Below, piece after piece: positions 4,355 through 31,105 of a stretch of DNA of 32,259 nt. Each line of letters begins with the position of its first letter. The first letter of the stretch is position 1. Position numbers and translations under genes: made by a program. The notes under the pieces are model-generated. The model worked only from the letters and a program-made list of their open reading frames with translations. It had not been told where the DNA came from and did not search any database. Origin of the DNA: Pseudomonadota bacterium (lineage in GTDB: Bacteria; Pseudomonadota; Gammaproteobacteria; Steroidobacterales; Steroidobacteraceae); contig JAJYFF010000028.1 in assembly GCA_021785405.1 (NCBI GenBank), positions 1 through 32,259 on the forward strand, given 5' to 3'.

Positions 4355-4355
4355 G

Positions 4356-11426: not shown

Positions 11427-11455
11427 ATTATAGGTCGCCGCCGTCTATAAAACAA
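11427..11455 (-). promoter_or_regulatory. Promoter of the SDR 1-ThuA-Rieske 1-E1/E2 operon
   Basis: On the minus strand a perfect -10, TATAAT (11432-11427), lies 17 bp from TTGTTT (11455-11450). The -35 overlaps the left arm of the palindromic operator at 11454-11471, so a bound repressor would block RNA polymerase. The leader to ATG 11356 would be about 65 bases. Confidence 0.6.
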
Positions 11456-11471
11456 ACAGTCTTGACTGTTT
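11454..11471. promoter_or_regulatory. Palindromic operator, perfect copy
   Basis: AAACAGTCTTGACTGTTT is a perfect inverted repeat of AAACAGTC with a 2-bp spacer, flanked by A- and T-rich tracts. It stands in front of the SDR 1 operon. Five related sites occur in the window, at 12363, 19418, 21575, 27191 and 31084, always in front of catabolic genes or the TetR gene. Size and symmetry fit a TetR dimer. It resembles a stem plus T run, but a 2-base loop and its promoter position argue against a terminator. Confidence 0.75.
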
Positions 11472-11535
11472 TTTTAATGACCCGGCCGCGACTCGAAGCC
11501 GGCGTCGACGCCCGAACCGAGGCGCAGGCCGCGCC

Positions 11536-12294
11536 TCACTGCGCAACCAGGCCGTTGTCGATCAGGATTTCGGCGGCGTTGACGAAGCGCGACTCGTCGG
11601 AGGCCAGATACAGCACCAGGTGCGCGACATCCTCGGGTTTGCCGAGTCCGACCGGCGTCTGGTCATAGGCCGACATCTGCATGCCAAGTTCGGCGGTCGC
11701 CTTGACCACCATCGGGGTCTCGATCGCACCCGCATGGATCGAATTGCAGCGGATCGCGTACTTGTTCATCTGACAATGCACCGCGATCGACTTGGTCATC
11801 GAACGCACCGCGCCCTTCGCGGCCGAATACGCGTAGAACGCCGGATAGCCGAGATGAGTCGCTGTCGAACACATATTGATGATCGAACCGCCACCCGAGT
11901 CCTTCAGCAGCGGAATCCCGTATTTGCATGCGAGGAAAACGCTGTCCGTCATCACCCGCAGATGTTTCTGGAAGTCCGCGAGGCTCGCCGACTCCGGAGT
12001 CCCGATCACGACGATACCGGCGTTGTTGACGAGGACGTGCAGCGCGCCGAACCGGCGCCGGATCTCCTCGTAGACTTCCTGCCAACGGCTCTCGCTCGAG
12101 ACGTCCTGCACCAGAAACAGCGCGGCGCCGGGATGCGCGGCATTGATCCGCTCCTCGAGCGCCCGGCCGGCGGTCTCGTTAACGTCGGTGATCACGACCC
12201 GAGCGCCTTCGCTCGCGAGCAGCATCGCATCCGCCTTGCCGAGTCCCGAGCCGGCACCCGTCACCAGCGCGACCTTTCCACTGACCCGTCCCAT
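11536..12294 (-). CDS. SDR-family oxidoreductase (SDR 2)
   Basis: A 252-residue classical SDR. TGAGSGLGK (residues 12-20) binds the cofactor, NNAG (90-93) is intact, and the catalytic residues are S143, Y156 and K160 (YSAAK). D37 after the second strand (VVITDVNE) suggests NAD over NADP. The ATG at 12294 has GGGGAGA about 7-8 bases upstream. It is divergent from the TetR regulator with 113 bp between start codons, and a degraded operator lies in that gap. Likely role: oxidation of a secondary alcohol or 3-hydroxyacyl intermediate. It ends about 180 bp before the SDR 1 start, so the two SDRs are separate transcription units. Confidence 0.92.
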   Translation of the reverse strand: MGRVSGKVALVTGAGSGLGKADAMLLASEGARVVITDVNETAGRALEERINAAHPGAALFLVQDVSSESRWQEVYEEIRRRFGALHVLVNNAGIVVIGTPESASLADFQKHLRVMTDSVFLACKYGIPLLKDSGGGSIINMCSTATHLGYPAFYAYSAAKGAVRSMTKSIAVHCQMNKYAIRCNSIHAGAIETPMVVKATAELGMQMSAYDQTPVGLGKPEDVAHLVLYLASDESRFVNAAEILIDNGLVAQ

Positions 12295-12362
12295 GCTCGT
12301 TCTCCCCGTAACCCTAGGCGATGACCGAGCGCACGACGCTACCAGTCAATTCAGCCGGTTTC

Positions 12363-12380
12363 AATCATCCTTGACTTTTT
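12363..12380. promoter_or_regulatory. Degenerate copy of the palindromic operator at the TetR gene
   Basis: AATCATCCTTGACTTTTT matches the consensus AAACAGTC-N2-GACTGTTT at 12 of 16 arm positions. It lies between the divergent SDR 2 and TetR genes. Its core TTGACT also reads as a -35 for the TetR gene, which suggests weak autoregulation. It is the weakest member of the set and could be accidental. Confidence 0.45.
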
Positions 12381-12399
12381 CAAGCACCCACGCGATCTT
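12371..12399 (+). promoter_or_regulatory. Possible TetR gene promoter
   Basis: TTGACT (12371-12376) is a good -35. Seventeen bases later comes GATCTT (12394-12399), a mediocre -10. Transcription would begin only a few bases before ATG 12408, so the mRNA would be leaderless or nearly so; no ribosome-binding site is visible before that ATG. Confidence 0.4.
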
Positions 12400-12407: not shown

Positions 12408-13055
12408 ATGGCCACGACACCCCAGGACAATCGCCCGCTCGACCCACTCTTGATCGGCAGCGGTTGGCAGGCGCAGAAGAGCGCCTCGACCCGCACGCAG
12501 ATCATCGAAGCGGCGATCACCTGTCTGGTCGAACTCGGCTACGGCCGCACCACCACCACGGAGATCGCCAAGAAGGCCGGGCTGTCGCGCGGCGCGATGT
12601 TGCACCACTTTCCCTCGAAGATGGACATCATCCGCGCGTCCGTCGAGTATCTGCACGCGAAACGGCTGCGCGCGTTCCGCAAGGCGATGGCGAAGGAACC
12701 GACCGACGGCGACCATGTGCGCCTCGGCATCGAGGGCTACTGGTCGCACGTGAAGCATCCTTGGTTCGTCGCGTTCTTCGAGATCGCGGTCGCGGCGCGC
12801 ACCGACAAGGAACTCGCCGCGATCCTCTTCCCCGCGCAGGAGGCGTTCGAACGCGAGTGGTACGAGACCAGCCTCGAACTGTTCCCGGAGTGGAAGCGCA
12901 AAGGCGAGAAGTTCATGCTCGGCTTCGACCTCACGCGCTACGTGATCGAGGGCATGGGCATCAGTTTCCTCACGCACAAGGAAACCGAGCGCGACAAGCG
13001 CGTGCTGCGCTACCTCGAGGCGAAACTCAAGGATCTCGCCGACGAGGACCGCTGA
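12408..13055 (+). CDS. TetR-family transcriptional regulator
   Basis: A 215-residue TetR-type repressor. The N-terminal helix-turn-helix is visible as TEIAKKAGLSRGAMLHHFPS (residues 51-70), preceded by STRTQIIEAAITCLVELGYG. The C-terminal ligand-binding part is unlike any family I can name. ATG 12408 is used; a TTG three codons upstream is also open. It is the only regulator gene in the window and sits in the middle of the catabolic island. I infer that it binds the AAACAGTC-N2-GACTGTTT palindromes here and releases them on binding a pathway substrate or CoA thioester. A strong hairpin lies just after the stop. Confidence 0.93.
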   Translation: MATTPQDNRPLDPLLIGSGWQAQKSASTRTQIIEAAITCLVELGYGRTTTTEIAKKAGLSRGAMLHHFPSKMDIIRASVEYLHAKRLRAFRKAMAKEPTDGDHVRLGIEGYWSHVKHPWFVAFFEIAVAARTDKELAAILFPAQEAFEREWYETSLELFPEWKRKGEKFMLGFDLTRYVIEGMGISFLTHKETERDKRVLRYLEAKLKDLADEDR

Positions 13056-16768: not shown

Positions 16769-19255
16769 CTATCGGCCAAACTTGTAACCGACCTCGCCGC
16801 CGATGAATCGCGGCTCGCCGTAGAACGACCAGATCCACAGCGGATCGACGTTCTGCGACGACTCGATGTAGACCTTGTCGGTGAGGTTGCGTCCGTACAC
16901 GCGCACGTACCAGCGATCGTCCGGCCCCTGGTAGGTGATCGACGCGCCGAGCAGTGCACGCGCCTGAGCATAGGTCTGCGTGAACGGCGCGTACGGCGCG
17001 GCGATCGAATACGTGTCGAGATTCTTCGACACGTAGTTGTCGTTCAGATCGAACACCAGGTGATGCCCGTCCGTGCCCGGAACCGCCATCCGGTAGTTCA
17101 GGTCGACGGTCGCCGTGACCGCCGGGCAGCGATTCACCGGCAGACCCGCCAGGTTCACGGACGTGCCCCCGGACGTCTGCGAGGTGAACTGACCGTACTC
17201 GCAATGTTGGAAGCTGAACGGTACGTGCAACAGCAGACCGTCGGCGAGCTCGGCCGTGAGCTCGTTCTCGATGCCGTAAGCCTTCATCGCCGCGGCGTTC
17301 CGGAACACCGTCTCTTCCGCCGTCAATCCGGCAGAATTGATGATCGGCTCGACGACTTGACGGATCAGATCCGTGTACTTCACGTAGAACAGCGCCTCAT
17401 TGACCCGGACGCGCTGATGGAACCATTCGCTCTTCATGCCGAGCTCGAACGAGTTGGCTTTCTCCGGGTTCGTGGGCGCCTTCTCCTGATTGGAGATCGG
17501 CGTGCCGCCGGTGCCCACCTGGTCGTTGTAGCCGCCGGCCTTGTAGCCGTGCGAGAAATTGACGTAGCCGAACAGATTCGGGTCGAACTGGTGCGACAGG
17601 ATGAACCGGTAGGTCGGCTGCGTCCACGAATGGCTGTCGGTCACGACGCCGAACGGGTACGCGGCGAAGTTCCCCGCGTTCATCAGGCCGCCGAGCTGCG
17701 GATACGTGAACGTCGGCACGATCGCGCCGGTCGGCGACGGCAGCTGCTGCACGAACACCTGCTGGCGGCCGATCCAGTTCTTGTCGTCCTTGGTGATGCG
17801 CGCGCCGATCGTCAGTGTGGTCGCGTCGGTCAACTTGTAGTTCGTCTCCCCGTACAATGCCGCGGACTTCGCGGTCTGCGCGTTGCACAACACCTGCGGA
17901 TTGTCGTTGTAGCCGCCGGGCTGCGTGCCCGGTGGCGTCGGCACGCCGAACAAATCGTAGATGCCGAGGATCTGCGAGACGCAGAACTTGGTGACGTCAT
18001 GCTGGTAGAACGCCCCGGCCACGTAGTTCCACTTGCCCATCTGTTTCGAGGTGAAGTGCGCCTCTTCCTGCCAGGTCTTGCGCCGGTCCGAGCGATTGGC
18101 GTCGAACACGGACAGCGGGCCGACGACACCGGTGTAGTCCGACGGCAGCGAGGAATCCTGCGACCGATAGCCCTGCACCCAGGAGAGCGTGCCGTAGTCG
18201 GTCTTCCAGTCGATGTTCAGGTGCTCGCCACTCGCATCGACCCGATGGCCGTTCTGCTCGTCGATCAGATAGCCGCTGCGGCCGTCGACGCCCGCGTTGC
18301 CGAGCGGATCGTTGCCCGTGTAACCCGGTAGTCCCAGCAGCGCGAACACGAAATACGGCGTGCTCGCGCCCGGCAGCGCATTGGTCGGCGTCGTGTTCAC
18401 CGCGCCCGGCGTCTGCGACCGATCGGTCAGCATTTCGTAGGTGAACAGCGCACGGAGCTTGTCGTTCGGTTCCCAGAGGAGTTTCGCACGGCCGGTGAAC
18501 ACGTCGGTGCCGCCGACGCTCTGGCCATTGCCGTGATAGGTCACGCCGCCGATCGTGTCGCTCGCGCCGTTGCGCATCCAGCCGTCCTCGCGATCTTCGC
18601 TCGCGACCACGCGCATCGCGAGCTGATGCGAGATCAGCGGAATGTTGAGCGCGCCGTGGGCGTTGAAGGCGTTGAAGCTGCCGAAGCCCATCTGCGTCTC
18701 GAACGACGTCTGGTCGAGCACCGGCGGCTTGGTCTTGACGATCACCGCGCCACCGGTCGTGTTCTTGCCGAACAGCGTGCCCTGCGGGCCGCGCAGCACT
18801 TCGACCTCTTGCACGTCGAACGGATCGAGCAACTGGGTCTGCGTGCTCGGCATCACGAAGCCGTCGATCACCACCGCGACCGGCGCCTCGTTGTAAACGA
18901 TGATGTCGGTGTTGCCGACGCCGCGCATCGCGAACGACGCGGCGTTGAAGCCGTTGATCTTGTTCGCCGAGAAGTTCGGCACCATCATCGCCAAATCCTG
19001 CAGCGTACGCGGCTCGAGTGCCTGGATCATGCTCGAATCGACCGCGGTCACCGCGATCGGCGTGGTCTGCAGGTTCGAGGTGCGCCGCTGCGCGGTGACG
19101 ACGACCTCCGCGAGGCCCTGTTCGGCTGACGCTCCGCCAGGCGCGCTCTGCGCATGGACCGCACCGGCGAATCCGCCGATCGCCGCCACTGCGCCGGTCA
19201 GTGCGCAGGTCGCGCGCATCGCGGACGACCGCTTCTTCCGATTGACATTCATCAT
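16769..19255 (-). CDS. TonB-dependent outer-membrane receptor
   Basis: An 828-residue TonB receptor. It has a signal peptide (cleavage likely after AVHA, residue 35), a TonB box AEVVVTAQ (49-56), a plug with the RGVGNTDI and VEVLRGPQGTLFGKNTTGG segments, and a long beta-barrel that ends in GGEVGYKFGR. Such receptors import substrates that porins cannot take, driven by TonB. ATG 19255 (or the next codon, 19252) matches the signal peptide; the frame upstream is shadow of the promoter. It is divergent from a PQQ dehydrogenase gene, and both share an operator. I infer uptake of the pathway substrate. A siderophore role cannot be excluded, but the context is catabolic. Confidence 0.95.
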   Translation of the reverse strand: MMNVNRKKRSSAMRATCALTGAVAAIGGFAGAVHAQSAPGGASAEQGLAEVVVTAQRRTSNLQTTPIAVTAVDSSMIQALEPRTLQDLAMMVPNFSANKINGFNAASFAMRGVGNTDIIVYNEAPVAVVIDGFVMPSTQTQLLDPFDVQEVEVLRGPQGTLFGKNTTGGAVIVKTKPPVLDQTSFETQMGFGSFNAFNAHGALNIPLISHQLAMRVVASEDREDGWMRNGASDTIGGVTYHGNGQSVGGTDVFTGRAKLLWEPNDKLRALFTYEMLTDRSQTPGAVNTTPTNALPGASTPYFVFALLGLPGYTGNDPLGNAGVDGRSGYLIDEQNGHRVDASGEHLNIDWKTDYGTLSWVQGYRSQDSSLPSDYTGVVGPLSVFDANRSDRRKTWQEEAHFTSKQMGKWNYVAGAFYQHDVTKFCVSQILGIYDLFGVPTPPGTQPGGYNDNPQVLCNAQTAKSAALYGETNYKLTDATTLTIGARITKDDKNWIGRQQVFVQQLPSPTGAIVPTFTYPQLGGLMNAGNFAAYPFGVVTDSHSWTQPTYRFILSHQFDPNLFGYVNFSHGYKAGGYNDQVGTGGTPISNQEKAPTNPEKANSFELGMKSEWFHQRVRVNEALFYVKYTDLIRQVVEPIINSAGLTAEETVFRNAAAMKAYGIENELTAELADGLLLHVPFSFQHCEYGQFTSQTSGGTSVNLAGLPVNRCPAVTATVDLNYRMAVPGTDGHHLVFDLNDNYVSKNLDTYSIAAPYAPFTQTYAQARALLGASITYQGPDDRWYVRVYGRNLTDKVYIESSQNVDPLWIWSFYGEPRFIGGEVGYKFGR

Positions 19256-19394: not shown

Positions 19395-19423
19395 AACATA
19401 CGCGTCGCATTTTAAAAAAACAA
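19395..19423 (-). promoter_or_regulatory. Promoter of the TonB receptor gene
   Basis: On the minus strand TTGTTT (19423-19418) and TATGTT (19400-19395) are separated by exactly 17 bp. The -35 lies in the left arm of the operator, the same geometry as at the SDR 1 operon. The leader would be about 130 bases. Confidence 0.5.
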
Positions 19424-19435
19424 GCCTGACTGTTT
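19418..19435. promoter_or_regulatory. Palindromic operator between TonB receptor and PQQ dehydrogenase
   Basis: AAACAAGCCTGACTGTTT matches the AAACAGTC-N2-GACTGTTT consensus at 14 of 16 arm positions, with long A and T tracts on either side. It can control both divergent genes. The right arm is perfect. Confidence 0.65.
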
Positions 19436-19590
19436 TTTTAGTACCGAACCGTGTCTAATGCGGCGATGGCTGGGAAGATCTCGCGGCCGCCACCGGCGGC
19501 GTGGAAGATAATCGGGCATCCCGTTCCGTGGCGCCGGCGCGACATCGCCTCCCAACCGAACACCGCCCCATCGCCCCGAGGAGGGTTCGC

Positions 19591-21507
19591 ATGCGCTCAC
19601 CGCAACCGCTGATTCGTTGGATCGCCCCCCTCGTCGTCAGTCTCGTCGCCATGAACGGCGCAAGCGGTGCAGCGGGGAAATTCACCGCGCTGCGCGCGAA
19701 AATGGACGCCTCGAAACACAGCGTAGATCGCGAAAAAATGCCCGGCGCTGCCGTGTATCACCGCGTTTGCGAACAATGCCACGACGGTCTCGCACCGAAA
19801 GCACCAGCCCGCACCTTTCTCGAGATGATGACGCCCGAGGCGATCGACCGGGCGCTCACCGTCGGCATCATGCGCAGCGAGGCCGCTGGGCTCAGCGTGC
19901 GAGCGAAGCGCGAAGTCGCCGAATATCTATCGGGCCTGCCGGTCGGCACCCATCCGCTGCCGCCCGCGCCGCGTTGCGACGCCGCGCATGCGCGCATCGA
20001 GACGAACCGCGCGCCGCGCCTGGTCGGTTGGGGCATGGAGAGCGGCAACGAACGATTCATTCCGGGCGCTCTTGCCGGCCTCGACGCCGCGCAGATCCCG
20101 CGGTTGAAGCTCAAGTGGGCATTCGCGTTTCCTGCGGCCGTGCGGGCGCGCTCGCAGCCGAGTTTCGCCTACGGCACCTTGTACATCGGCAGCCCGAACG
20201 GAGCGGTGTACGCACTCGATCCCGACTCGGGATGCATACGGTGGACGTACCACACCAGCGCCGAGGTACGTACGCCGATCGTCGTACCGCCGATGCAGGG
20301 GCCGCAGAAGCTCGCGTTCTTTGGCGACATCCTCGGCCACGTACACGCGGTCGACGCGGCCACCGGACGGGAACTCTGGGAGCGGCGCGTCGACGACCAT
20401 CCCAGCGCCACGATCACCGGCGCGCCGGTTTATCACGACGGAACGCTATATGTGCCGGTCTCCTCGCTGGAAGAGGCGATCGCAAGACCGAGCTATCCGT
20501 GCTGCACGTTCCGCGGCAGCGTGGTCGCGCTCGATGCCGCGAACGGACGGATACTCTGGAAGCGTTACACGATCGACGCACCGCCGCACCAGATCGGCGT
20601 GACGAAATCGGGAACCAAGATGTTCGGTCCTTCGGGCGCCGCGGTCTGGAACACGCCGACGATCGACGCCCGACGGGGCTTGCTCTACGTCGGCACCGGC
20701 AACAACTACACCGGCTCCTCCGTGGGTCGGAGCGACGCGGTACTGGCGCTATCGCTCGCAACCGGCCGGATCGTCTGGTCGCACCAGATCGTGCGCGGCG
20801 ATGCCTGGAACGTCGGCTGCATGGTCGGTCTCGACAGCTGCCCGCCGCACTCTGGACCGGACTCCGACATCGGCGCGGGCACGATGCTGGCAACGCTGGC
20901 GGACGGCCGCCAAGCGCTGTTCGTCGGCTTGAAGAACGGCACGGTGGTTGCCCTCGATCCGGCGCACCGCGGCAAACTGTTGTGGTCGCATCGGATCGGC
21001 CGCGGATCGATTCAAGGCGGAATCCAGTTCGGCATGGCGTTCGACGGACGAAGACTGTTCGTGCCGATCTCGGACATGGCTCACTCGATGGACGCTTCCG
21101 AGAAGGTGCGTCTCGCGAATGCCGGGCCACCCCACCCCGGCTTGTACGCGCTCGACCCGAACGACGGGCGGTTTATCTGGTCGATGCCTGCCGACGACGT
21201 CTGCGGGGGGCGAAGTTTCTGTGATCCCGGCATTCTCGCCGCGGTAACCGCGATCCCGGGTGCGGTGTTCGCCGGTCATATGGACGGGCGCTTACGCGCC
21301 TACGACGCGTCGACAGGCCGCGTGCTGTGGCAGTACGACACGACGCAACCGGTCAAGACGCTCAACGGCACCATGGCGCATGGTGGATCGATCGGCGACG
21401 GCGGACCGGTCGTCTACCACGGCATGGTTTACACGAATTCCGGATATGGACTCTATTTCCACATGCCGGGTAACGTGCTGCTCGCGTTCTCGATCGACGG
21501 TCGCTAG
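19591..21507 (+). CDS. Cytochrome c / PQQ-binding beta-propeller dehydrogenase (polyvinyl-alcohol dehydrogenase-like)
   Basis: A 638-residue exported protein. A signal peptide (to about residue 26) leads to a small cytochrome c domain with CEQCH (C60, C63, H64). From about residue 135 onwards there are repeated beta-propeller blades with the motif G-Y-A-L-D-P-x-x-G-x-x-x-W (GAVYALDPDSG, HVHAVDAATGRELW, VVALDAANGRILW and LRAYDASTGRVLW), typical of PQQ quinoproteins. The order cytochrome then propeller matches PVA-dehydrogenase-like enzymes, not methanol dehydrogenases. It should oxidise alcohols in the periplasm and pass electrons to the respiratory chain. ATG 19591 follows GAGGAGGG. PQQ residues are not individually proven here, so the cofactor is inferred from fold. 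Confidence 0.9.
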   Translation: MRSPQPLIRWIAPLVVSLVAMNGASGAAGKFTALRAKMDASKHSVDREKMPGAAVYHRVCEQCHDGLAPKAPARTFLEMMTPEAIDRALTVGIMRSEAAGLSVRAKREVAEYLSGLPVGTHPLPPAPRCDAAHARIETNRAPRLVGWGMESGNERFIPGALAGLDAAQIPRLKLKWAFAFPAAVRARSQPSFAYGTLYIGSPNGAVYALDPDSGCIRWTYHTSAEVRTPIVVPPMQGPQKLAFFGDILGHVHAVDAATGRELWERRVDDHPSATITGAPVYHDGTLYVPVSSLEEAIARPSYPCCTFRGSVVALDAANGRILWKRYTIDAPPHQIGVTKSGTKMFGPSGAAVWNTPTIDARRGLLYVGTGNNYTGSSVGRSDAVLALSLATGRIVWSHQIVRGDAWNVGCMVGLDSCPPHSGPDSDIGAGTMLATLADGRQALFVGLKNGTVVALDPAHRGKLLWSHRIGRGSIQGGIQFGMAFDGRRLFVPISDMAHSMDASEKVRLANAGPPHPGLYALDPNDGRFIWSMPADDVCGGRSFCDPGILAAVTAIPGAVFAGHMDGRLRAYDASTGRVLWQYDTTQPVKTLNGTMAHGGSIGDGGPVVYHGMVYTNSGYGLYFHMPGNVLLAFSIDGR

Positions 21508-21592: not shown

Positions 21593-21614
21593 CTTTTTCG
21601 GGGTGCGGTATACT
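21586..21614 (+). promoter_or_regulatory. Promoter of the Rieske 2 operon
   Basis: TATACT at 21609-21614 is a strong -10. TCTGTT (21586-21591), a poor -35, is 17 bp upstream inside the operator; CTGTTT gives a 16-bp spacer. The leader to ATG 21656 would be about 35 bases. Confidence 0.5.
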
Positions 21615-22867: not shown

Positions 22868-22871
22868 GCGC

Positions 22872-24317
22872 ATGAAGGAATCGGCCGCGATCCTTGCCTG
22901 CGGGATCCATGTGCCGCGCCTGAGGCTCTCGCGCGCTCGGATCGCCGCGGAGACGGCCTGGCTCTCCGCGCCGGCTCGCCCGACACCGCCGGGCGAGCGT
23001 GCGATCGGGAATTGGGACGAGGACGCCCTCACGATGGCGGTCGGCGCCGCCCGCGAGGCGCTCGCCGGCCGCAGCGCGACGCCGCCCGCCACGCTCGCGT
23101 TCTGCACGACGACCGCACCGTTCGCGGACCGCGACGATGCGGGCCTGGTCGCCGCCACGCTCGCACTGCCCGAGACCACCGCGACCCAGAACAACGGTGG
23201 CTCGCTGCGCGCGGGTACGCGAGCGCTGATCGGCGCCTGCGCGGCCGCCGGCAAGGAAGCGACGCTCGTGATCGCGAGCGACCAGCGCCTCGCACGCATC
23301 GGCAGCACGCAGGAGTTCGCCTACGGCGACGCCGCGGCCGCGCTGCTGGTCGGCAAGGCCGGCGAATCCGCGCCGCTCGCCACGGTGCTCGCTACGCATG
23401 CACGCGGTTCAGATTTCGTCGATCACTACCGGATGGCCGGCGCCCGTTTCGACTACGCGCTCGAGGAGCGCTGGGTGCGCGATGAATCGTTCCTGAAGAT
23501 CGTTCCGCGGACGATCGGCGAACTGCTCACGGCGGTCGCGGTGAATCCCGCGGACGTACGCCATCTCGCCGCGCCGCTCGGCGCCGGACTCGCCCGACGG
23601 ATCGCGCAGGTGAGCGGGCTCGCGAACGCCTCGGTCGACGAGCGACTGCAACGCGCCTGCGGCGATGCGGGCACCGCGATGCCGCTGCTCGAGATCCTCG
23701 CCGCGCTCGCGCGCGCCGCGCCGGGCGAGATGCTGGTCGCGATAGGACTCGGCCAGGGTGTCGATGCGCTGCTGTTGCGCGCCGAGGCGGGCGCCCCGCG
23801 CGCCGCCGCCGCGCTCGAGCGCGCGCTCGAGCGACGCCGCGAGGAAACGAGTTACCTGCGCTATCTATCCCACCGCGGACTCGTCGAAGTCGACTTCGGC
23901 ATGCGCGCCGAGCGCGACCAGCGCACCGCGCACACGGTCGCCTACCGCAAGCGCGCCGCGGTGAGCGCGTTCGTCGGTGGGCGCTGCGAACGCTGCGGCA
24001 CGGTGCAGTTCCCGCTCGCGCGCGTCTGCGTGAACCCGCAGTGTCGGGCGACCGACACGCAGCAGCCGCATCGACTCGCCGACTCGACCGGCCGCGTGAA
24101 GACCTTCACCGAGGACTGGCAGGCCTTCGCGCCGCGCCCACCCTACGTCTACGGCAACGTCGAGTTCGCCGAGGGCGGCAACCTGTTGATGGAATTCACC
24201 GACGTCGAGTCCGGCGAACTCGCGGTCGGCGATCCGGTGCGCTTCGAGTTCCGGATCAAGGACGAGGACCGCGCGCGCGGCTTTCGTCGTTACTTCTGGA
24301 AGGCGACGCGCGTCTGA
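22872..24317 (+). CDS. HMG-CoA-synthase/KAS-III-like domain fused to a DUF35 zinc-ribbon/OB domain
   Basis: A 481-residue two-domain protein. Residues 1 to about 340 have the condensing-enzyme fold of HMG-CoA synthase. A zinc ribbon follows (C372, C375, C386, C391) in the C-terminal DUF35 part, then an OB-fold strand set (YVYGNVEFAEGGNLLMEF and onward). The nucleophile cysteine usual at NACYGGT is missing: the aligned segment reads GGSLRAGTRAL, with no Cys between residues 105 and 122. I therefore infer a non-catalytic partner domain. The DUF35 part should hold the thiolase encoded next, as in archaeal thiolase/HMG-CoA synthase/DUF35 complexes and, from recollection, the PhlACB acyltransferase. 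A fusion of the two partners is notable. Confidence 0.85.
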   Translation: MKESAAILACGIHVPRLRLSRARIAAETAWLSAPARPTPPGERAIGNWDEDALTMAVGAAREALAGRSATPPATLAFCTTTAPFADRDDAGLVAATLALPETTATQNNGGSLRAGTRALIGACAAAGKEATLVIASDQRLARIGSTQEFAYGDAAAALLVGKAGESAPLATVLATHARGSDFVDHYRMAGARFDYALEERWVRDESFLKIVPRTIGELLTAVAVNPADVRHLAAPLGAGLARRIAQVSGLANASVDERLQRACGDAGTAMPLLEILAALARAAPGEMLVAIGLGQGVDALLLRAEAGAPRAAAALERALERRREETSYLRYLSHRGLVEVDFGMRAERDQRTAHTVAYRKRAAVSAFVGGRCERCGTVQFPLARVCVNPQCRATDTQQPHRLADSTGRVKTFTEDWQAFAPRPPYVYGNVEFAEGGNLLMEFTDVESGELAVGDPVRFEFRIKDEDRARGFRRYFWKATRV

Positions 24318-24338
24318 ACGCGCGCGGATGAGGTCACG

Positions 24339-25556
24339 ATGCCGAGCGGAATCAAGGACAAGGTCGTGATCGCCGGGATGGGCTGCTCGAAGTTCGGCGA
24401 GCGCTGGTCCGCCGGTCCCGACGACCTCATGGTCGAGGCGTTCGGCGAGGCGCTCGCCGACGCGGGGATCGAACGCGACCGGATCGAGGCGGCCTGGCTG
24501 GGGGTGTTCTTCGACGAACAGAGCACCGGCAAGTCCTCGTTGCCGATGTCGATGGCGCTGCGCCTGCCGAACGTGCCGACGACCCGGGTGGAGAACCTGT
24601 GCGCGACCGGCACCGAAGCACTGCGCGGCGCGGTCTACGCGGTCGCCGCCGGCGCTTGCGACATCGCACTCGCGATGGGCGTGGAGAAACTGAAGGACAC
24701 GGGCTTCGGCGGACTACCCGAGCGCACCAAGGGTACGTTCGAGGATCTGTACCTGCCGAGCAGCACCGCACCCGGCGCGTTCGCGCAACTCGCAAGCGCC
24801 TACGCCCACGCCTACGGCTACTCGATCGATGAGCTCAAGCGCGCGATGGCGCACGTCTCCTGGAAGAGCCACGAGAACGCGGTGCGCAATCCCAAGGCAC
24901 ACCTGCGCAACCGCATCACGATCGAGCAGGCGCTCGAGGCGCCGATGATCGCCTACCCGCTCGGCGTGTACGATTGCTGTGGCGTCAGCGATGGGGCTGC
25001 CTGCGCGATCGTCACGACGCCGGAAATCGCCCGCAGCCTCGGCAAGCGCGATCTGGTGTCGGTGAAGGCCCTGCAGCTCGCGCCGAGCAACGGCGTGGAG
25101 ATGGGGCATCAGTCCTGGGACGGCACGCACACGCTGACCACGCCGCTCGCCGCGCAGCGTGCCTACCGCGAGGCGGGCATCCGCGATCCGCGCGCCGAAC
25201 TCGACCTGATCGAGGTGCACGACTGCTTCTCGATCACCGAGCTCGTCGTGATGGAGGATCTGGGGCTTTCCGACCTCGGACGCGCGCCGCACGACATCCT
25301 CGACGGCCGCTACGATCGCGACGGCGCGATTCCCTGCCAGATCGACGGGGGCCTCAAGTGCTTCGGTCATCCGATCGGCGCGAGCGGCCTGCGGATGGCT
25401 TACGAGATCTACCTGCAGTTGCTCGGTCGCGCCGGCGAACGGCAGCTGCGCGGCCGCGGCGGCCGCGGGCCCGCGCTCGGCCTCACGCACAACCTGGGCG
25501 GGATTCCGAACCGCAACGTCGCCAGCGTCTCGGTGCTGGGGCTGCTCGCGACCTGA
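24339..25556 (+). CDS. SCP-x-type thiolase
   Basis: A 405-residue thiolase. The nucleophile is C88 in ENLCATGTEAL. HDCFSITEL holds H294, and GGLKCFGHPIGASG holds H344, the GHP histidine. The C-terminal NLGG motif is the SCP-x form and lacks the usual third cysteine. GAGG precedes ATG 24339 in the 21-bp gap from the fusion gene. Family members cleave or form C-C bonds: biosynthetic thiolases, the retro-aldol Ltp2 of steroid side-chain loss, or the acetyltransferase PhlC. With a DUF35 partner beside it, an aldolase or deacylase reaction on a CoA or aryl-ketone substrate is more likely than plain beta-oxidation. This is inference. Confidence 0.9.
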   Translation: MPSGIKDKVVIAGMGCSKFGERWSAGPDDLMVEAFGEALADAGIERDRIEAAWLGVFFDEQSTGKSSLPMSMALRLPNVPTTRVENLCATGTEALRGAVYAVAAGACDIALAMGVEKLKDTGFGGLPERTKGTFEDLYLPSSTAPGAFAQLASAYAHAYGYSIDELKRAMAHVSWKSHENAVRNPKAHLRNRITIEQALEAPMIAYPLGVYDCCGVSDGAACAIVTTPEIARSLGKRDLVSVKALQLAPSNGVEMGHQSWDGTHTLTTPLAAQRAYREAGIRDPRAELDLIEVHDCFSITELVVMEDLGLSDLGRAPHDILDGRYDRDGAIPCQIDGGLKCFGHPIGASGLRMAYEIYLQLLGRAGERQLRGRGGRGPALGLTHNLGGIPNRNVASVSVLGLLAT

Positions 25557-25587
25557 CCACGACGCACCACCGGGGAGGGACATCGAC

Positions 25588-26154
25588 ATGACCGACACCA
25601 CGTTCACACGCATCCCGCGCGCGGATCTCGCGGTCGAGTGGCAAGGGGCCTGGGACACGCTGCATCGCCTCACCGGCGATGCGACCTTCGTCGAGGTGTT
25701 CGCGCAAGCGCCGGAGATGCTGCGATTCGTGATGCAGCAGTTCTACGCGAAGGTGTTCTTCGGCGGCCAGGTCGCGCAGCGCTACAAGCAGCTCGCGCGC
25801 CTGCAGCTGTCGCTGATCCACGGCTGTCGGACCTGCAACCAGCAGAACGTGCCCGGCGCGCTCGAAGCGGGCTTCACGCCGGCGCAGATCGACGCGTTGG
25901 TCGAGGGCCGCCTGGAGGCCTTCTCGTCCGCGGAGCGCGCGGTCATCGAATACGCGCGCCAGGTCGCGCTGCCGAACCTGCAGGGACGGATGACACCCGA
26001 GTTGTTCGCGCGCCTGCGAGCGCACTTCTCGGAGGCCGAGATCCTCGAGCTCGGCACCGCGATGGCCGTGATCTCGGGGATGGCGAAGCTGTCGTTCGTG
26101 CTCGACCTGGTCGAACGCGAGCCGTATTGCCCGTTCCAACCCGCGGCCGCCTGA
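25588..26154 (+). CDS. AhpD-like / carboxymuconolactone-decarboxylase-family protein
   Basis: A 188-residue all-helical protein of the CMD/AhpD superfamily. The redox-type motif is HGCRTC (C80, C83), but the histidine normally 4 residues later is N87, so the classical peroxidase relay is incomplete. Similar proteins are common next to aromatic-degradation operons. It is the last gene of the Rieske 2 operon, with GGGAGGGA 31 bases before its ATG region. Roles could be alkyl-peroxide handling, CoA-linked lactone chemistry or none known. It converges on a minus-strand SDR. Confidence 0.8.
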   Translation: MTDTTFTRIPRADLAVEWQGAWDTLHRLTGDATFVEVFAQAPEMLRFVMQQFYAKVFFGGQVAQRYKQLARLQLSLIHGCRTCNQQNVPGALEAGFTPAQIDALVEGRLEAFSSAERAVIEYARQVALPNLQGRMTPELFARLRAHFSEAEILELGTAMAVISGMAKLSFVLDLVEREPYCPFQPAAA

Positions 26155-26220: not shown

Positions 26221-27105
26221 TCAGCGCCCCGAGACCCGAAAGTAGTCCGGGATGCCGGCCGGCCAATCCTCGCCCCAGTTCTGCCGGCCGCCGTCGACCG
26301 TGAGCACCTCGCCGGTGATGAACTTGCCGGTCGGCGCGGCGAGATAGACCACTCCCTGCGCGATGTCGAGCACGTCGCCCAGGCGCTTCATCGGGTTCGA
26401 GAATACGAACGCCTCGGCCGCCTCGCGCGGATAGACGTTCAGACCTTCGGTGCCGATCGATCCCGGCGCAAGACAGTTCACACGGATATTGAGCGGAGCC
26501 CACTCGATCGAGACCGATTTGCTGAGATAGATCACACCGGCGCGCGCGGCGGCGGTGTGCGCGACCTGGGGCATCCCGCGGTTGACGACCGCGACGATGT
26601 TGACGATCGACCCCGGCCGCTCGTGCTCGCGCCAGAGGCGCGCCGCCTGCTGCATCATGTACCAGGTACCGTTCAGGTTCGTGTCGATGACCGCATGCCA
26701 GCCCTTCACGGTGAAGTCGATCGCGGCCTGGGGAAACTGTCCGCCCGCGCTGTTGACCAGCACGTCGAGCCGGCCGTAGCGCTCCCACACCTCGTCGAAG
26801 AGCCGCGCGACCTGCTCGGGATCGCGAATGGTCATCGCACGGGTCATCACCGACCGGCCGAGGTGCTGCTCGATCCCAGCGGCGGTCGCCGCCAGCTTGT
26901 CGGCACTGCGGCTGCAGACGACGACCTCGGCGCCGAGCCGTGCGAGCACGTACGCGGTCGCGCGACCGATCCCGCTGCCGCCGCCCGAGACGAGGCAGAC
27001 CTGTCCGGCGAGCAGATCTGCGCGATACGCCAGCGGCCGACTCGCGAGTTCGGCCTCGGTCAGGCCCCATTGCTTCGGTGGGTCGCGCAGCACAGAGTTG
27101 GTCAT
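26221..27105 (-). CDS. DECR-like SDR (enoyl-CoA reductase type) with altered active site
   Basis: A 294-residue SDR. SGGGSGIGR (residues 40-48) is the cofactor motif. The active region GMPQVAHTAAARAG (177-190) lacks the Y-x3-K: T184 and R188 stand in its place. It closely resembles peroxisomal 2,4-dienoyl-CoA reductases, whose QVHAGSAKA segment likewise lacks the tyrosine, but that family keeps the lysine. The later NIRVNCLAPGSIGTEGL also fits that group. I infer reduction of an unsaturated acyl-CoA using NADPH, with the Lys-to-Arg change as a caution. ATG 27105 is divergent from the ligase gene across an operator. It is a lone gene, convergent with the AhpD gene. Confidence 0.85.
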   Translation of the reverse strand: MTNSVLRDPPKQWGLTEAELASRPLAYRADLLAGQVCLVSGGGSGIGRATAYVLARLGAEVVVCSRSADKLAATAAGIEQHLGRSVMTRAMTIRDPEQVARLFDEVWERYGRLDVLVNSAGGQFPQAAIDFTVKGWHAVIDTNLNGTWYMMQQAARLWREHERPGSIVNIVAVVNRGMPQVAHTAAARAGVIYLSKSVSIEWAPLNIRVNCLAPGSIGTEGLNVYPREAAEAFVFSNPMKRLGDVLDIAQGVVYLAAPTGKFITGEVLTVDGGRQNWGEDWPAGIPDYFRVSGR

Positions 27106-27164: not shown

Positions 27165-27193
27165 AGTATAGAAGGGCCGGTTCTCAAAAGAAA
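27165..27193 (-). promoter_or_regulatory. Promoter of the DECR-like SDR gene
   Basis: On the minus strand TATACT (27170-27165) is a good -10, with TTTCTT (27193-27188), a weak -35, 17 bp upstream. The -35 touches the operator at 27191-27208. The leader would be about 55 bases. Confidence 0.45.
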
Positions 27194-27208
27194 CAGGACT
27201 GACTGTTT
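27191..27208. promoter_or_regulatory. Palindromic operator between DECR-like SDR and acyl-CoA ligase
   Basis: AAACAGGACTGACTGTTT matches 14 of 16 arm positions, with a perfect right arm and A/T-rich flanks. It can serve both divergent genes. On the plus side TTGTTT (27207-27212) and a weak TAGTGT (27229-27234) give a possible ligase promoter. Confidence 0.65.
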
Positions 27209-27272
27209 GTTTTTGGATCGGGGCATGCTAGTGTCCAACTCAATCGCTGCATCGAGCAGGGGCTGATCACTC

Positions 27273-29147
27273 ATGGCTGTATCCAAGCGGACCACGCGCG
27301 GTGCGCGCAAGAGTTCCCCTCCACCACATCGCGGCTCCGCGAAGGCGGTCGGTGCGAAACGCGCCGCGGCGACCCGAACCACGGCGCGAGCCGCCGCTCG
27401 CCGGCCGGCGAAACCCGCACGTGCCGCCGTCCGGCCGAGCGCGAAGCGCGCCCGGGGCGTGACGCCGGTCGTGCCGCCGGCGGCGACGCGGGTCGAGGAT
27501 CTCGCGTCGCTGCGCATTGCCGTGACGACGATGGGGGATCTGCTGCTTTCGGCCGCGGATCGTTACCCGAAGACGCTCGCGCTCGTATTCCCGGACGCGG
27601 AGTTCACCTACGAGGAGCTCGCGGCGCGCGCGCTGCGACGCGCGCGCAGTCTGCTCGCGCTCGGCGTGAAGCCGCGCGACAAAGTCGGCATCCTGATGCA
27701 CACCTGTCCGGCGTTCGTCGAGGTGTTCTTCGCCGCGTCGCTGTGCGGCGCCGTGGTCGTGCCGATCAATGCGCGCTACCGCTCTACCGAGCTGAATTAC
27801 GTGATCGAGAACGCGGACATCGCGACGCTGGTCACGACCGACGCGATCGCCGAGCAGGTGAGCTTCGTCGAGCGCTTGGGCGGCGCATTGCCCGACCTCA
27901 AGTCGCAGCACGATCCGCGCAGGCTACGACTCGCGCAGGCACCGAAGCTGCGCAACATCGTGATGATCGGCGAATCGACGCCGCACGGCTTCGTTTCGCA
28001 GCGCGATTTCGACCGCGCGGCCGAGGACGTGGCGGAGATCGCCGTGCACCGCACGCGCCTCGGCGTGCGCGTGCGCGACGTCGGGTTGATGCTCTACACG
28101 TCCGGCACCACCGCGCATCCGAAGGGCTGCCTGATCACCCACGAGGCGCAGGTGCGCAACTCGATCGCACTCGGCCGCCACCGCTATCAGCTCACGCACG
28201 CCGACCGCTTCTGGTCGCCCCTGCCGATGTTCCACATCGCCTCGGTCCTGCCGATGCTCGCGATCTTCGACGTCGGCGGCACCTACCTCACGATGGGTCA
28301 TTTCGATCCGGGCGTCGCGCTGAAGATGCTCGAGAAGTACGAGGTCACCGCGACCTACCCGTGCTTCGTGACCATCATGCAGGGACTCATCTACCACCCC
28401 CACTTCGCGAAGACGAACCTGAAGCGGGTGCGGCTGATGAACTCGAACTTCGCGGTGCAGCCGCCAGAAGTCGCCGAGTCGATCATGCGGGCGATGCCGC
28501 AAGCCTTGCAGGTCGGCAGCTTCGGCATGACCGAGACCGCCGGAACGGTGTGCACCGGCGCGCCCGACGAGCCGCAGGTGTCGCGAATCAGCCGGCTCGG
28601 CCGTCCCCTGCCCGGCCTCGAGGTGCGCATCGTCCAACCCGACACCGGCGAGGAGGCGGCCACGGGCCAGCGCGGCGAAGTACTGGTGCGCGGCTACAGC
28701 ACGCTCGAGGGGTACTACAAGGATCCCGAAAAGACCGCTCAGGCGATCGACGCCGAGGGCTGGTTCCACACCGGCGACATCGGCTCGCTCGACGAGCACG
28801 GCGCGATCATGTTCCACGGCCGTTACAAGGACATGCTCAAGGTCGGCGGCGAGAACGTCGCCGCGGCCGAGATCGAGGCGGTGCTCGCGCGCCATCCGGC
28901 GGTCAAGCTCGCTCAGGTGGTCGGCATCCCCGACGAGAAGTACGTCGAGGTGCCGGCGGCGTTCGTCGAGCTCAAGCCCGGCAAGAAGGCGAACGAGGCC
29001 GAGTTGATCGCTTTCTGCAAGCGCGAGGTCGCCGGATTCAAGGTGCCGCGCGCCGTGCGCTTCGTCGAGGAGTGGCCGATGTCCTCGAGCAAGATCCAGA
29101 AGTTCCGGCTGCGCGACGATCTGGTCCGCGAACTCGGGCTCGGCTGA
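27273..29147 (+). CDS. AMP-forming acyl-CoA synthetase with a basic N-terminal tail
   Basis: A 624-residue ANL-family ligase. The phosphate-binding loop is YTSGTTAHPKG (from Y275), then FGMTETAG, YKDPEKT, GWFHTGDIG and the C-terminal hinge GRYKDMLKVGGEN. The late segment SSSKIQKFRL carries the catalytic lysine region. The catalytic part begins near residue 87. The first 62 residues hold 19 Lys/Arg and no Asp/Glu, with many Ala, Pro and Thr, resembling a histone-H1-like tail. The start ATG 27273 has AGGGG about 11 bases upstream; ATG 27531 would remove the tail but has no ribosome-binding site. The enzyme should convert a carboxylic acid to its CoA ester using ATP. Substrate unknown. Confidence 0.92.
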   Translation: MAVSKRTTRGARKSSPPPHRGSAKAVGAKRAAATRTTARAAARRPAKPARAAVRPSAKRARGVTPVVPPAATRVEDLASLRIAVTTMGDLLLSAADRYPKTLALVFPDAEFTYEELAARALRRARSLLALGVKPRDKVGILMHTCPAFVEVFFAASLCGAVVVPINARYRSTELNYVIENADIATLVTTDAIAEQVSFVERLGGALPDLKSQHDPRRLRLAQAPKLRNIVMIGESTPHGFVSQRDFDRAAEDVAEIAVHRTRLGVRVRDVGLMLYTSGTTAHPKGCLITHEAQVRNSIALGRHRYQLTHADRFWSPLPMFHIASVLPMLAIFDVGGTYLTMGHFDPGVALKMLEKYEVTATYPCFVTIMQGLIYHPHFAKTNLKRVRLMNSNFAVQPPEVAESIMRAMPQALQVGSFGMTETAGTVCTGAPDEPQVSRISRLGRPLPGLEVRIVQPDTGEEAATGQRGEVLVRGYSTLEGYYKDPEKTAQAIDAEGWFHTGDIGSLDEHGAIMFHGRYKDMLKVGGENVAAAEIEAVLARHPAVKLAQVVGIPDEKYVEVPAAFVELKPGKKANEAELIAFCKREVAGFKVPRAVRFVEEWPMSSSKIQKFRLRDDLVRELGLG

Positions 29148-29161
29148 GCGCGTCGAAACCC

Positions 29162-29695
29162 ATGAGCGCCTTCGTACCGCTGTTCGGACCGATCGTCCAG
29201 AACGCCTACGTGGTCGCCGATCTGCAGGCCGCGGTCGCGCATTGGACCGACAAGGTCGGCGTCGGTCCGTTCTACCTGATGGAGCACGTCGCTTTTGGCG
29301 ACGTCTGGTTCCGCGGCGCGCCGCTCACGCTCGATCTATCGGTCGCCATCGCCCAGTGGGGCGAGATCCAGGTCGAGCTCGTCACGCAGCACGACGCCTC
29401 GCCGTCGATCTACCGCGAGTTCGCGGCGCGTCACGGCGAGGGACTGCAGCACGTCGGCGTGATGACGCCTTCGGTCGAGCAACACCTGCGCCGCCTCGCG
29501 GACCGCGGCATCGAACCGGTGCAGCACGGCGCGACCGCGAACGGCATGCGCTTCGCCTACGTGTCGACCGACGCGCATCCTGGCGCCATGATCGAGCTGA
29601 TCGAGTCGGGCCCCGCGGTCGACGCGTTCTTCCTGATGGTGCGCAACGCGGCGCGCGGCTGGGACGGCTCGCGTCCGCTGCGTCGGCTCCGCTGA
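29162..29695 (+). CDS. VOC-family (glyoxalase-like) protein 1
   Basis: A 177-residue vicinal-oxygen-chelate protein. The strands GPIVQNAYVVADLQ and LQHVGVMTPS give the paired beta-alpha-beta-beta-beta modules, and MIELIESG near the end supplies the usual glutamate ligand region. It begins 14 bp after the ligase stop; the frame upstream is shadow. Members include glyoxalases, methylmalonyl-CoA epimerases and extradiol dioxygenases. It resembles the next gene (GVGPFYL-, YRG/FRG-P), so the two arose by tandem duplication. A metal-dependent epimerase or lyase step on a CoA or diol intermediate is possible. The substrate is unknown. Confidence 0.82.
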   Translation: MSAFVPLFGPIVQNAYVVADLQAAVAHWTDKVGVGPFYLMEHVAFGDVWFRGAPLTLDLSVAIAQWGEIQVELVTQHDASPSIYREFAARHGEGLQHVGVMTPSVEQHLRRLADRGIEPVQHGATANGMRFAYVSTDAHPGAMIELIESGPAVDAFFLMVRNAARGWDGSRPLRRLR

Positions 29696-29721
29696 CGGAC
29701 GCGCGGCGACGGTTCGAGGCG

Positions 29722-30273
29722 ATGTTCGGCCTACCCTCCCGACCGGTTCAGATCGCCTATCACGTCGCCGACCCGGCGCGCGCTGCGCGCGAATGCGCGC
29801 GCGACTTCGGCTGGGGGCCGTTCTACCTGTTCGCGCACATCCCGCTCGCGCGCTGCGTATACCGCGGCCGTCCCGCGCACTGGGACCACAGCTCGGCCTA
29901 CGGCCAAGCGGGGAGCCTCATGGTCGAGTTGATCGCGCAGCACGACGATCAACCCTCGGTGCTGCGCGACACCTACGCGCGCGAGGCGGTCGGCGTGCAC
30001 CACGTCGCGCACTTCGTGCCCGATCTCGCCGCGGCGCTCGCGGCGGCGCGCGCCGCCGGCGTCGAGGTCGCGTTGGAGGCGACCACCGCGACCGGCACCG
30101 AATTCGCGATGCTCGACCTGCGCGCGCGGCTCGGCCACATGGTCGAGTTGTACGCGCCGGACGGCGGTCTGGCGAAGTTCTACCGCTACGTCGAGCGCGC
30201 GGCCGAGGGTTGGGACGGCACCGATCCGCTGCGCGCGATCCCCACGAGGAGCGCAACCGATGGCTCGCATTGA
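29722..30273 (+). CDS. VOC-family (glyoxalase-like) protein 2
   Basis: A 183-residue VOC protein similar to its upstream neighbour. The landmarks are VQIAYHVADPARAA, GWGPFYLFAHIPL, VHHVAHFVPDLA and GHMVELYAPDGG, with His and Glu candidates for the metal site. ATG 29722 fits the family start; the open frame farther left is shadow. A GAGG lies close before the ATG. The last 14 bases overlap the SDR 5 start, which argues for translational coupling. It may form a heterodimer with VOC 1 or act on a different stereoisomer. No function can be assigned by sequence. Confidence 0.82.
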   Translation: MFGLPSRPVQIAYHVADPARAARECARDFGWGPFYLFAHIPLARCVYRGRPAHWDHSSAYGQAGSLMVELIAQHDDQPSVLRDTYAREAVGVHHVAHFVPDLAAALAAARAAGVEVALEATTATGTEFAMLDLRARLGHMVELYAPDGGLAKFYRYVERAAEGWDGTDPLRAIPTRSATDGSH

Positions 30274-31099
30274 AGGCAAGGTCTCGATCGTGCTCGGCGC
30301 GGCTGGCCAGGACAACATGGGTCAGACGATCGCGCGCCGATTCGCCGCCGAAGGCGCGCGGGTGATCGTCGCTGGACGGCGGGAGGAGCCGTTGCGCGCG
30401 CTCGCCGCCGAGCTCGACGGCGCGTATCGCGTCTGCGACGTGACTCGCAGTGACGAGGTCGCCGGGCTCGCGGCGTTCGCGGTGGAACGCTTCGGCCGGA
30501 TCGACGCGGCGGTCAACTGCACTGGCTGGGCGCCGATGACCAAGCTCCTCGACGTGCGCGAGGCTGAACTCGACGCGCTGTGCGCGCTGCAGTTCAAGGG
30601 TGTGTATTTCTTCCTGCAGCACATGGTCGCACAGATGACCGAGCACGGCGGCGGCTCGATCGTGCAGATGTCCTCGGCGTCGGCCTACGCGCTCCTATAC
30701 AACCACGCGGCCTACATCGCCACCAAGACCGCCGGTGACGCGCTGGTGCGCTGTTTCGCGAACGAGTTCGGCATCAAGGGCGTGCGCGTGAACTCGATCG
30801 CACCGGGACTCACCGCGAGCCCGATGACGGAGCGCGAGATCGGCCTGCCCGGACTCGTCGAGGCATTCGTCAAGGAGTATCCCCTCGGGCGCATCGGCAC
30901 CGCCGACGACATCGCCAACGCCGCGCTCTGGCTGGTCTCGGACGAGAGCTTCGTCACCGGCCAGGTGCTGCAGGTCAACGGCGGACTCACCCTGCGGCGC
31001 AACCCCAGTCCGCGCGAGATCAACGCGAGCCTGCGCGCGCACGCACCGCAGGCCGCGGCCGCGAGCACCCCCGGCGCCGCAAAAAACAGTCAGCCGTGA
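30260..31099 (+). CDS. SDR-family oxidoreductase (SDR 5)
   Basis: A 279-residue SDR. The catalytic residues are S138/S139, Y152 and K156 (AAYIATKTAG), and VNSIAPGL follows. The glycine motif is unusual: LGAAGQDNMGQ is longer than the normal TGxxxGIG, which is a feature of enoyl-reductase-like subgroups. The C-terminus carries about 25 extra residues rich in Ala and Pro that lead to the stop. GAGGAG is 9 bases before ATG 30260. The gene overlaps VOC 2 by 14 bp, and its own stop lies inside the next operator (31084-31105). Likely an NAD(P) dehydrogenase or reductase on a ring or side-chain hydroxyl. Confidence 0.9.
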   Translation: MARIEGKVSIVLGAAGQDNMGQTIARRFAAEGARVIVAGRREEPLRALAAELDGAYRVCDVTRSDEVAGLAAFAVERFGRIDAAVNCTGWAPMTKLLDVREAELDALCALQFKGVYFFLQHMVAQMTEHGGGSIVQMSSASAYALLYNHAAYIATKTAGDALVRCFANEFGIKGVRVNSIAPGLTASPMTEREIGLPGLVEAFVKEYPLGRIGTADDIANAALWLVSDESFVTGQVLQVNGGLTLRRNPSPREINASLRAHAPQAAAASTPGAAKNSQP

Positions 31100-31105
31100 T
31101 TGTTT
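31084..31105. promoter_or_regulatory. Variant palindromic operator with 6-bp spacer, over the SDR 5 stop
   Basis: AAACAGTC (31084-31091), a 6-bp spacer AGCCGT, then GATTGTTT (31098-31105). Arms match the consensus at 15 of 16 positions, but the spacing is 4 bp longer than in the other sites. The TGA of SDR 5 (31097-31099) lies inside it. It may bind the same regulator in another register, or be a degraded copy. Confidence 0.5.

Follow-up and report, generated by a model that had tools for sequence, protein, structure and literature searches.

Most TetR-family proteins are repressors. Members of the family have an N-terminal helix-turn-helix domain in an all-helical fold with a variable ligand domain, bind as dimers to a palindrome that commonly lies close to the regulator gene, and let go of it when a ligand is present. 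Passages of the published work on FadRSa of the archaeon Sulfolobus acidocaldarius (PMC6449355) describe a TetR-family repressor of a catabolic gene cluster that acts at a few semi-palindromic sites and binds as one dimer or as a dimer of dimers, depending on the operator sequence; they present this one-or-two-dimer binding as a property of the archaeal protein, as against two separate classes in bacteria. For QacR and CprB, passages of another paper (PMC4150764) describe dimers of dimers on long operators of 28 and 22 bp. Here we analyze a 32,259-nucleotide stretch of Steroidobacteraceae DNA (the window), which is the entire contig C34 of an assembly of 133 contigs and 2,923,224 bases and carries a catabolic gene cluster together with a gene, tetR, at position 12408 that encodes the TetR-family protein P0002. 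By computation we found six palindromic sites in the promoters of the window; such sites exceed chance, co-occur with tetR across genomes, stand before orthologous genes in relatives, come in two spacings and keep a preferred register to the -10 hexamer. Judged from sequence, they are probably the operators of this TetR, through which it would repress the catabolic cluster and, weakly, its own gene.

The palindrome AAACAGTC-N2-GACTGTTT was found in the places named by a preliminary description of the DNA, with no mismatch at 11454-11471, one at 21575-21592 and two each at 19418-19435 and 27191-27208, that is, in four copies where 0.02 would be expected by chance (at ≤3 mismatches); none of 100 shuffles reached four sites. 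The complete genome assembly held five sites at ≤3 mismatches, including these four, and the reversed control pattern gave none. The fifth site (C20:11669) has 3 mismatches and lies inside a called gene (L099), a single match of the kind that, had it been frequent in unrelated genes, the preliminary description would have counted against itself. We also applied a weight matrix built on 39 sites from related genomes (those of genome G013 and one site of G052, on contig C18, were omitted); here and below, bit thresholds and -10 scores were set by us. The four sites of the window came out on top, at 32-35 bits, followed by the two weaker sites at 31084 (16.1 bits) and 12363 (14.3 bits), which are also real, and the remaining matches of ≥5 bits were shifted or opposite-strand readings of known sites. 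Where at least five operons had been proposed, as many as nine transcription units might be served by the six sites, since three of these sit between divergent genes. The claim that no site lies inside a gene holds no more than loosely, as the first 16 bases of the site at 31084 overlap the 3' end of SDR4 (one of four SDR, or short-chain dehydrogenase/reductase, genes; 30260-31099).

The site at 31084 had been listed as a copy with longer spacing, which it is; what had been overlooked is that it represents a second regular class. Positions 31084-31105 form a perfect 22-bp version, AAACAGTCA-GCCG-TGATTGTTT, and the weak tetR site is better read as a 22-bp form at 12359-12380 with 4 mismatches (the mean in 20 block shuffles was 0.05); all other window sites can also be read in this way, with 1 to 4 mismatches. 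We scanned the window, 80 TetR loci (the best 80 of 279 from the TetR alignment) and 22 further loci for CARTCA-N{n}-TGAYTG with n from 0 to 15 and found 22 distinct contexts with n=0 and 29 with n=4, compared with 0 or 1 at every other n and 0 to 3 for a scrambled pair. The half-sites had been picked after the 18-bp form was known, so the peak at 0 was expected and the peak at 4 is the news. Thus, just two spacings of the half-site CARTCA/TGAYTG are in use, namely, 0 and +4 bp. The common 22-bp frame is AAACARTCA-N4-TGAYTGTTT, and each 18-bp site holds two such frames offset by 4 bp, in which the outer half-site is degenerate and maybe only an A-tract. By analogy with the archaeal FadRSa, the two spacings suggest binding as a dimer on one class and as a dimer of dimers on the other. 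One dimer may occupy the 22-bp class and two overlapping dimers the compact 26-bp class, with spacing setting stoichiometry and strength while a single -10 register is kept, a model that we hold tentatively, as a real possibility short of a favored one; because an A-tract on one side also occurs at 22-bp sites, flank conservation does not discriminate between one dimer and two.

The nearest relatives in public records, according to the TetR alignment, are Steroidobacteraceae and gammaproteobacterial or proteobacterial metagenome-assembled genomes (MAGs). In a comparison set of 60 genomes that includes the genome of the window, the TetR gene (match at E <= 1e-20) was present in 12. The 18-bp motif (≤2 mismatches) occurred in all 11 TetR-positive relatives, at 40 sites (reversed control, 5), and in 11 of the 48 TetR-negative genomes, at 14 sites (reversed control, 23), an association with a Fisher p of ~1e-6 once the window's own genome is added. 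At ≤3 mismatches the contrast was blurred, with a match in 57 of the 60 genomes. The 22-bp form (≤1 mismatch) was found in 10 of the 12 TetR-positive genomes versus 1 of the 48 TetR-negative ones (G013), and its control was found in 0 of 60.

Comparison of upstream regions in relatives, a check put forward earlier, showed that the sites precede genes orthologous to the targets in the window, namely, the SDR1 operon, the operon of the Rieske oxygenase RO2, the SDR3/acyl-CoA ligase genes, the TonB and PQQ genes and the Rieske oxygenase gene RO3. Operator 1 (Table 1) is kept before SDR1, a variant of operator 3, AAACAAGCNTGACTGTTT, recurs before TonB and other genes, operator 4 is conserved in L068, L073, L079, L086 and other loci, and perfect 22-bp forms stand before RO3 in six genomes (G002, G005, G007, G008, G013 and G017). 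Relatives also have sites before genes that are site-free in the window, in some cases before the ACAD/CaiB and ABM2/Rieske-ferredoxin genes. When six 22-bp places were fetched from contigs new to the set, four were RO3 promoters (L188-L190 called by match and L191 by its first codons at a contig end), and the other two (L192 and L193) precede an oxygenase-like gene of 32-37% identity.

The 80 TetR loci contain 81 sites of ≥20 bits, distributed over 56 loci, compared with 0-1 for ten column-permuted matrices, and by one criterion or another (18-bp site, exact 22-bp site or the tetR promoter element described below) at least one site is present in 69 of the 80. In loci L104-L171, 1 of 65 sites is centered in a called gene despite 82% coding sequence (P 1e-46). 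The most distant loci, L172-L183 (from Halieaceae and similar organisms), encode a TetR 43-47% identical to P0002, and no other protein of the window has a match there above 40% identity; none of their 16 sites is centered in a called gene, with only 39% of this DNA called coding by our own codon-model script, which was used for genes in relatives generally and missed genes there. In eight of these 12 loci, the 450 bp upstream of the matched TetR gene nevertheless hold a site of ≥20 bits; of the other four, one has a site at 13 bits and three are without any site of ≥6 bits. That the sites arose by chance or are compositional repeats of AT-rich gaps at promoters, an explanation to which their AT richness in a window of 67% GC might point, was ruled out by the shuffles, the reversed pattern and the permuted matrices, which gave almost none; with the conservation before orthologs, this leaves that explanation a negligible likelihood.

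The tetR promoter carries a conserved element of its own, read by eye as TAnCAGTCA-N4-TGnCGGTTTCAATCA-N4-TGACTTTTT. Its right part is present with ≤2 mismatches in 56 of the 80 TetR loci, and a stricter version lies upstream of 51 of the 80 tetR genes (82 occurrences across loci, on both strands). Within it, TTGACT is the likely -35 hexamer of tetR, with a weak -10 hexamer 17 bp on, and TTGAAA on the opposite strand is the likely -35 hexamer of SDR2. Four Woeseiaceae loci (L159, L163, L166 and L167) have two full overlapping operators upstream of tetR, about 19 bp apart.

The sites also keep a preferred register to the promoter. Of 154 18-bp sites, 124 are non-redundant and promoter oriented, and 91 of these have a -10 hexamer above threshold, the best one lying 16-21 bp after the core in 65 and 20-21 bp after it in 47; a shuffled control gave 37 above threshold, of which 2.9 fell at 16-21 bp. 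Among the 22-bp sites, 39 are promoter oriented and yielded 35 scored -10 hexamers, 18 of them 16-17 bp after the site, a count made without a shuffle control. The two sets agree, because 20-21 bp after the 18-bp core is the same position as 16-17 bp after the promoter-proximal 22-bp frame, whose last six bases occupy the -35 place. In the window, this place reads TTGTTT for SDR1, RO3 and the acyl-CoA ligase, TTGAAA for SDR2, TTCTTT for SDR3 and RO2 and TTTTTT for TonB and PQQ. At operator 1, on the minus strand, TTGTTT is followed 17 bp on by TATAAT, and operator 5 is flanked in both directions by hexamers resembling a -10 (TATACT and TAGTGT), each 16 bp after the 22-bp frame, whereas the TonB promoter has no clear -10 hexamer in register. 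The earlier claim of a -35/-10 pair overlapping the palindrome stands for several sites, with the spacing to the -10 hexamer kept in relatives and the RO2 promoter of the window as an exception.

We propose that TetR from 12408 controls a catabolic cluster of Rieske oxygenases, SDRs, a TonB receptor, an acyl-CoA ligase and a thiolase; that the bound protein at the -35 place would block RNA polymerase; that a ligand from the pathway would release it; and that the weaker site at tetR would provide mild autoregulation. In the preliminary description, the repeated palindrome was taken as a regulon repressed by this TetR. The regulon is well supported, by co-occurrence, orthologous targets and sites upstream of distant tetR genes, whereas the binding of TetR to the sites, repression by covering the -35 place and the mild autoregulation are what we infer.

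A number of observations weigh against this assignment. Eleven of the 80 TetR loci (L106, L109, L141, L142, L150, L164, L165 and L168-L171) have no site by any of the three criteria. The ACAD/CaiB and ABM2/Rieske-ferredoxin gaps of the window have no site by the weight matrix. The TetR-negative MAG G013 has a perfect 18-bp site, other good sites and an orthologous gene cluster (L098 and L102). The training sites of the matrix were initially selected by the window's own pattern, and 12 of the 80 TetR loci come from genomes used in training. The RO2 promoter of the window is out of register, with its -10 hexamer TATACT 12 bp rather than 16-17 bp after the 22-bp frame, and at RO3 of the window the best -10 hexamer found by our script lies at offset 66, TAACAT at 17 having scored lower. 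As to G013, the assembly is 82% complete, and tetR may be absent only from it. Loci L168-L171, which have other neighbors, show a degenerate AGACAGTCCTGACGGATT-like sequence of 8-12 bits ~100 bp ahead of the start of the matched TetR; the operator may have drifted there. The divergent promoter gaps at 13716-13770 and 15393-15463, within the cluster, have no operator in the window, and the CaiB/ACAD gap has one in L163.

The promoters bear on a further possibility, that the regulon and its TetR are the same but that the protein is a class II activator, centered near -40 to -42, that represses only tetR. Class II activators are centered near -41.5 at promoters with a poor -35 hexamer. Outside promoters with TTGTTT, TTGTAT or TTGAAA, the -35 hexamers are poor (TTCTTT and TTTTTT, as at RO2, SDR3, TonB and PQQ), which suits an activator better and must be added to the points above; the distance to a near-consensus -10 hexamer is nearly fixed in several promoter families, the operator is centered near -40 to -42 in most promoters, and P0002 has FasR, which NCBIfam lists as an activator, both as a weak family match and as a structural neighbor. 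On the other hand, TTG is kept at the -35 place of the SDR1, RO3 and acyl-CoA ligase promoters of the window, and in the promoter direction the proximal half of the 22-bp sites is TGATTG, which supplies this TTG, in 15 of 17 SDR1 and RO3 sites, although more weakly overall (26 of 39, versus 18 of 39 with a TGATTG-type distal half). In one group of SDR1 promoters (eight loci, L110 to L123), the proximal half is a true TGATTG, and in others it is TGTTTNTTT. A count of proximal TGATTG in 30 of 32 sites proved to be an artefact of row orientation and was replaced by the 26 of 39 obtained in the promoter direction, which slightly lowered our confidence in repression. The RO2 promoter in the genus of the window is shifted by 4 bp, and neither the tetR promoter nor 6 of 14 ferredoxin promoters fit a center near -40 to -42. 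These ferredoxin genes, divergent from SDR1 in relatives and checked for identity in all 14 cases, have their best -10 hexamer only 10-13 bp after the core in those 6, so that their -35 place lies under the site, an arrangement that suits repression but not activation. Repression is favored because one protein at one site would block both the SDR1 promoter and the divergent ferredoxin promoter; activation, although not far-fetched, seems to us unlikely.

The assignment to this particular protein could also be wrong if the sites belonged to the product of some other locus, be it a TetR paralog or an unrelated regulator, and the TetR at 12408 merely traveled with the cluster. The cluster and TetR co-occur, so presence and absence alone cannot separate the two, and the contig stops at the ends of the window. 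Four of the 12 TetR-positive genomes encode TetR paralogs (38-47% identity), and in G017 the paralog lies on the same short contig, next to the tetR gene of the cluster, where a second binder is possible; both facts belong with the unfavorable points. However, the other 8 of these 12 genomes, that of the window included, have no such paralog at E <= 1e-20, the G007 cluster lies on one contig with this TetR as the only regulator among its recognised genes, the sites persist upstream of tetR in 8 of the 12 distant loci, where the neighbors differ, and a conserved element is also present in the promoter of tetR. The previously unknown families common to at least four clusters are GST, P450 and 2Fe-2S ferredoxin, none of them regulators, and no regulator family beside the TetR paralogs is common to that many clusters, although small genes may have been missed by the caller. 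We therefore consider a different owner of the sites improbable and continue with TetR from 12408. All but one (L067:17573-18838) of the families common to three genomes were scanned via one member each; these five are an ABC ATPase, a mutase fusion and kinase-like, lactamase-like and hydrolase-like proteins. The paralogous TetRs, at 38-45% identity to P0002, are L103:6588-7202 and those in L019, L021 and L022 (four genomes); two genomes of the set encode yet another TetR (L075:8970-9695).

P0002 belongs to the TetR family (PF00440 TetR_N, E 1.9e-13, 50.4 bits against a cut-off of 24). None of the 18 named NCBIfam TetR equivalogs listed (ScbR, BetI, FasR, AcrR and others) matched it at cut-off, the best reaching 46.3 against 150 bits, and the ScbR-type model matched over residues 24-93 only, far below its cut-off. 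Its AlphaFold model is all-helical, with nine helices and a pLDDT of 85.8; the 50 PDB matches listed by Foldseek are all transcriptional regulators, many named as TetR family, at 15-24% identity, and a search of solved structures by sequence gave 85 matches, mostly to the DNA-binding half only among the 60 listed. In 13 TetR orthologs, the RGAMLHHFPS region is invariant, as is an arm, GWQAQKSA, that precedes the first helix or forms its beginning and that might contact the A-tracts on either side of the operators. The TetR, at 53-68% identity, and in part its cluster were also found in L129, L130, L135, L136 and L168-L170, whose record titles (Klebsiella pneumoniae, Janthinobacterium lividum, Candidatus Planktophila lacus, Rhizobium and Candidatus Kuenenia) do not seem to match their DNA.

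The genes and sites of the cluster are collected in Table 1. The extent of the SDR1 operon is a prediction, and apart from the Rieske oxygenase RO1 (8346-9779, NCBIfam matches) its gene names were read from translations, E1a, E1b and E2 being named as 2-oxoacid dehydrogenase components. The acyl-CoA ligase frame opens (27273-27460) with ~60 residues in which Lys, Arg, Ala and Pro abound, unless the true start lies further in (the caller placed it at 27459). Beside the G007 cluster, L072:2-2233 encodes a B12-binding/MeaB/methylmalonyl-CoA mutase fusion, a hint at branched or propionyl-type products.

Table 1. Predicted operators and genes of the cluster in the window
Feature	Position	Strand	Remarks
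Operator 1	11450..11475		perfect 18-bp core 11454-11471; overlapping 22-bp readings 11450-11471 and 11454-11475; before SDR1 operon
tetR/SDR2 divergent promoter element	12340..12380		two 22-bp-type sites: 12359-12380 with 4 mismatches; 12340-12361 with 5 mismatches (expectation from shuffles, 0.45)
Operator 3	19414..19439		between TonB receptor gene (-) and PQQ dehydrogenase gene (+)
Operator 4	21571..21596		before RO2-HMGS-thiolase-CMD operon
Operator 5	27187..27212		between SDR3 (-) and acyl-CoA ligase operon (+)
Operator 6	31084..31105	+	perfect 22-bp form before RO3; overlaps last 16 bases of SDR4
tetR	12408..13055	+	TetR-family regulator, 215 aa; sole regulator gene recognised in the window
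SDR1	10595..11365	-	first gene of operon below operator 1; Pfam adh_short_C2
Rest of putative SDR1 operon	3037..10551	-	ThuA-like, RO1, E1a, E1b, E2, MaoC, enoyl-CoA hydratase
SnoaL-like gene	4364-4942	+	opposite strand within SDR1-operon stretch
SDR2	11536..12294	-	divergent from tetR; Pfam
TonB-dependent receptor	16769..19255	-	Pfam Plug and barrel
PQQ-type dehydrogenase	19591..21507	+	Pfam; cytochrome c domain match below curated cut-off
RO2 Rieske oxygenase, HMG-CoA-synthase-like/OB-fold protein, thiolase, CMD protein	21656..26154	+	Pfam, NCBIfam
SDR3	26221..27105	-	Pfam
Acyl-CoA ligase, two VOC proteins, SDR4	27273..31099	+	ligase by NCBIfam; VOC proteins and SDR4 from translation
RO3 Rieske oxygenase	31165..32259	+	NCBIfam; runs off contig

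With these sites, a catabolic cluster found in many Steroidobacteraceae, Woeseiaceae and related MAGs gains a defined regulon and with it a set of genes whose products probably work jointly on a single substrate. The operator is also a handle for finding missing pathway genes in fragmented genomes, as it worked here for RO3, and the two spacings offer a sharp test of whether a bacterial TetR binds as one or two dimers according to the operator. Searches of the open-paper literature found no description of the motif (AAACAGTC, CAGTCATGACTG), the regulon or the two-spacing rule, and to our knowledge it is unusual for two exact spacings to be combined with a single promoter register. TetR regulons that span a catabolic cluster are of an already known kind; the two spacings appear to be new.

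In fold, P0002 resembles FadR (of Bacillus), EthR2, FasR and AcnR, all four of which appear in the list of 50 Foldseek matches (E 6e-5 to 1.6e-4), but it is only 16-23% identical to them, and their operators are different from those described here. PheR of Sphingobium is, according to passages on it (PMC13273656), a single repressor that links the uptake and catabolism of a hydrophobic substrate, although it belongs to the IclR family and depends on an essential GCAACG core. The 26-bp extended site is similar in length to the operators of QacR and CprB, whereas the passages on those two proteins (PMC4150764) mention no second spacing class. The choice between one dimer and a dimer of dimers, as described in passages on FadRSa (PMC6449355), would explain the two operator classes found here; FadRSa is archaeal and its stoichiometry was measured, whereas for the TetR of this cluster the stoichiometry is suggested by half-site spacing alone.

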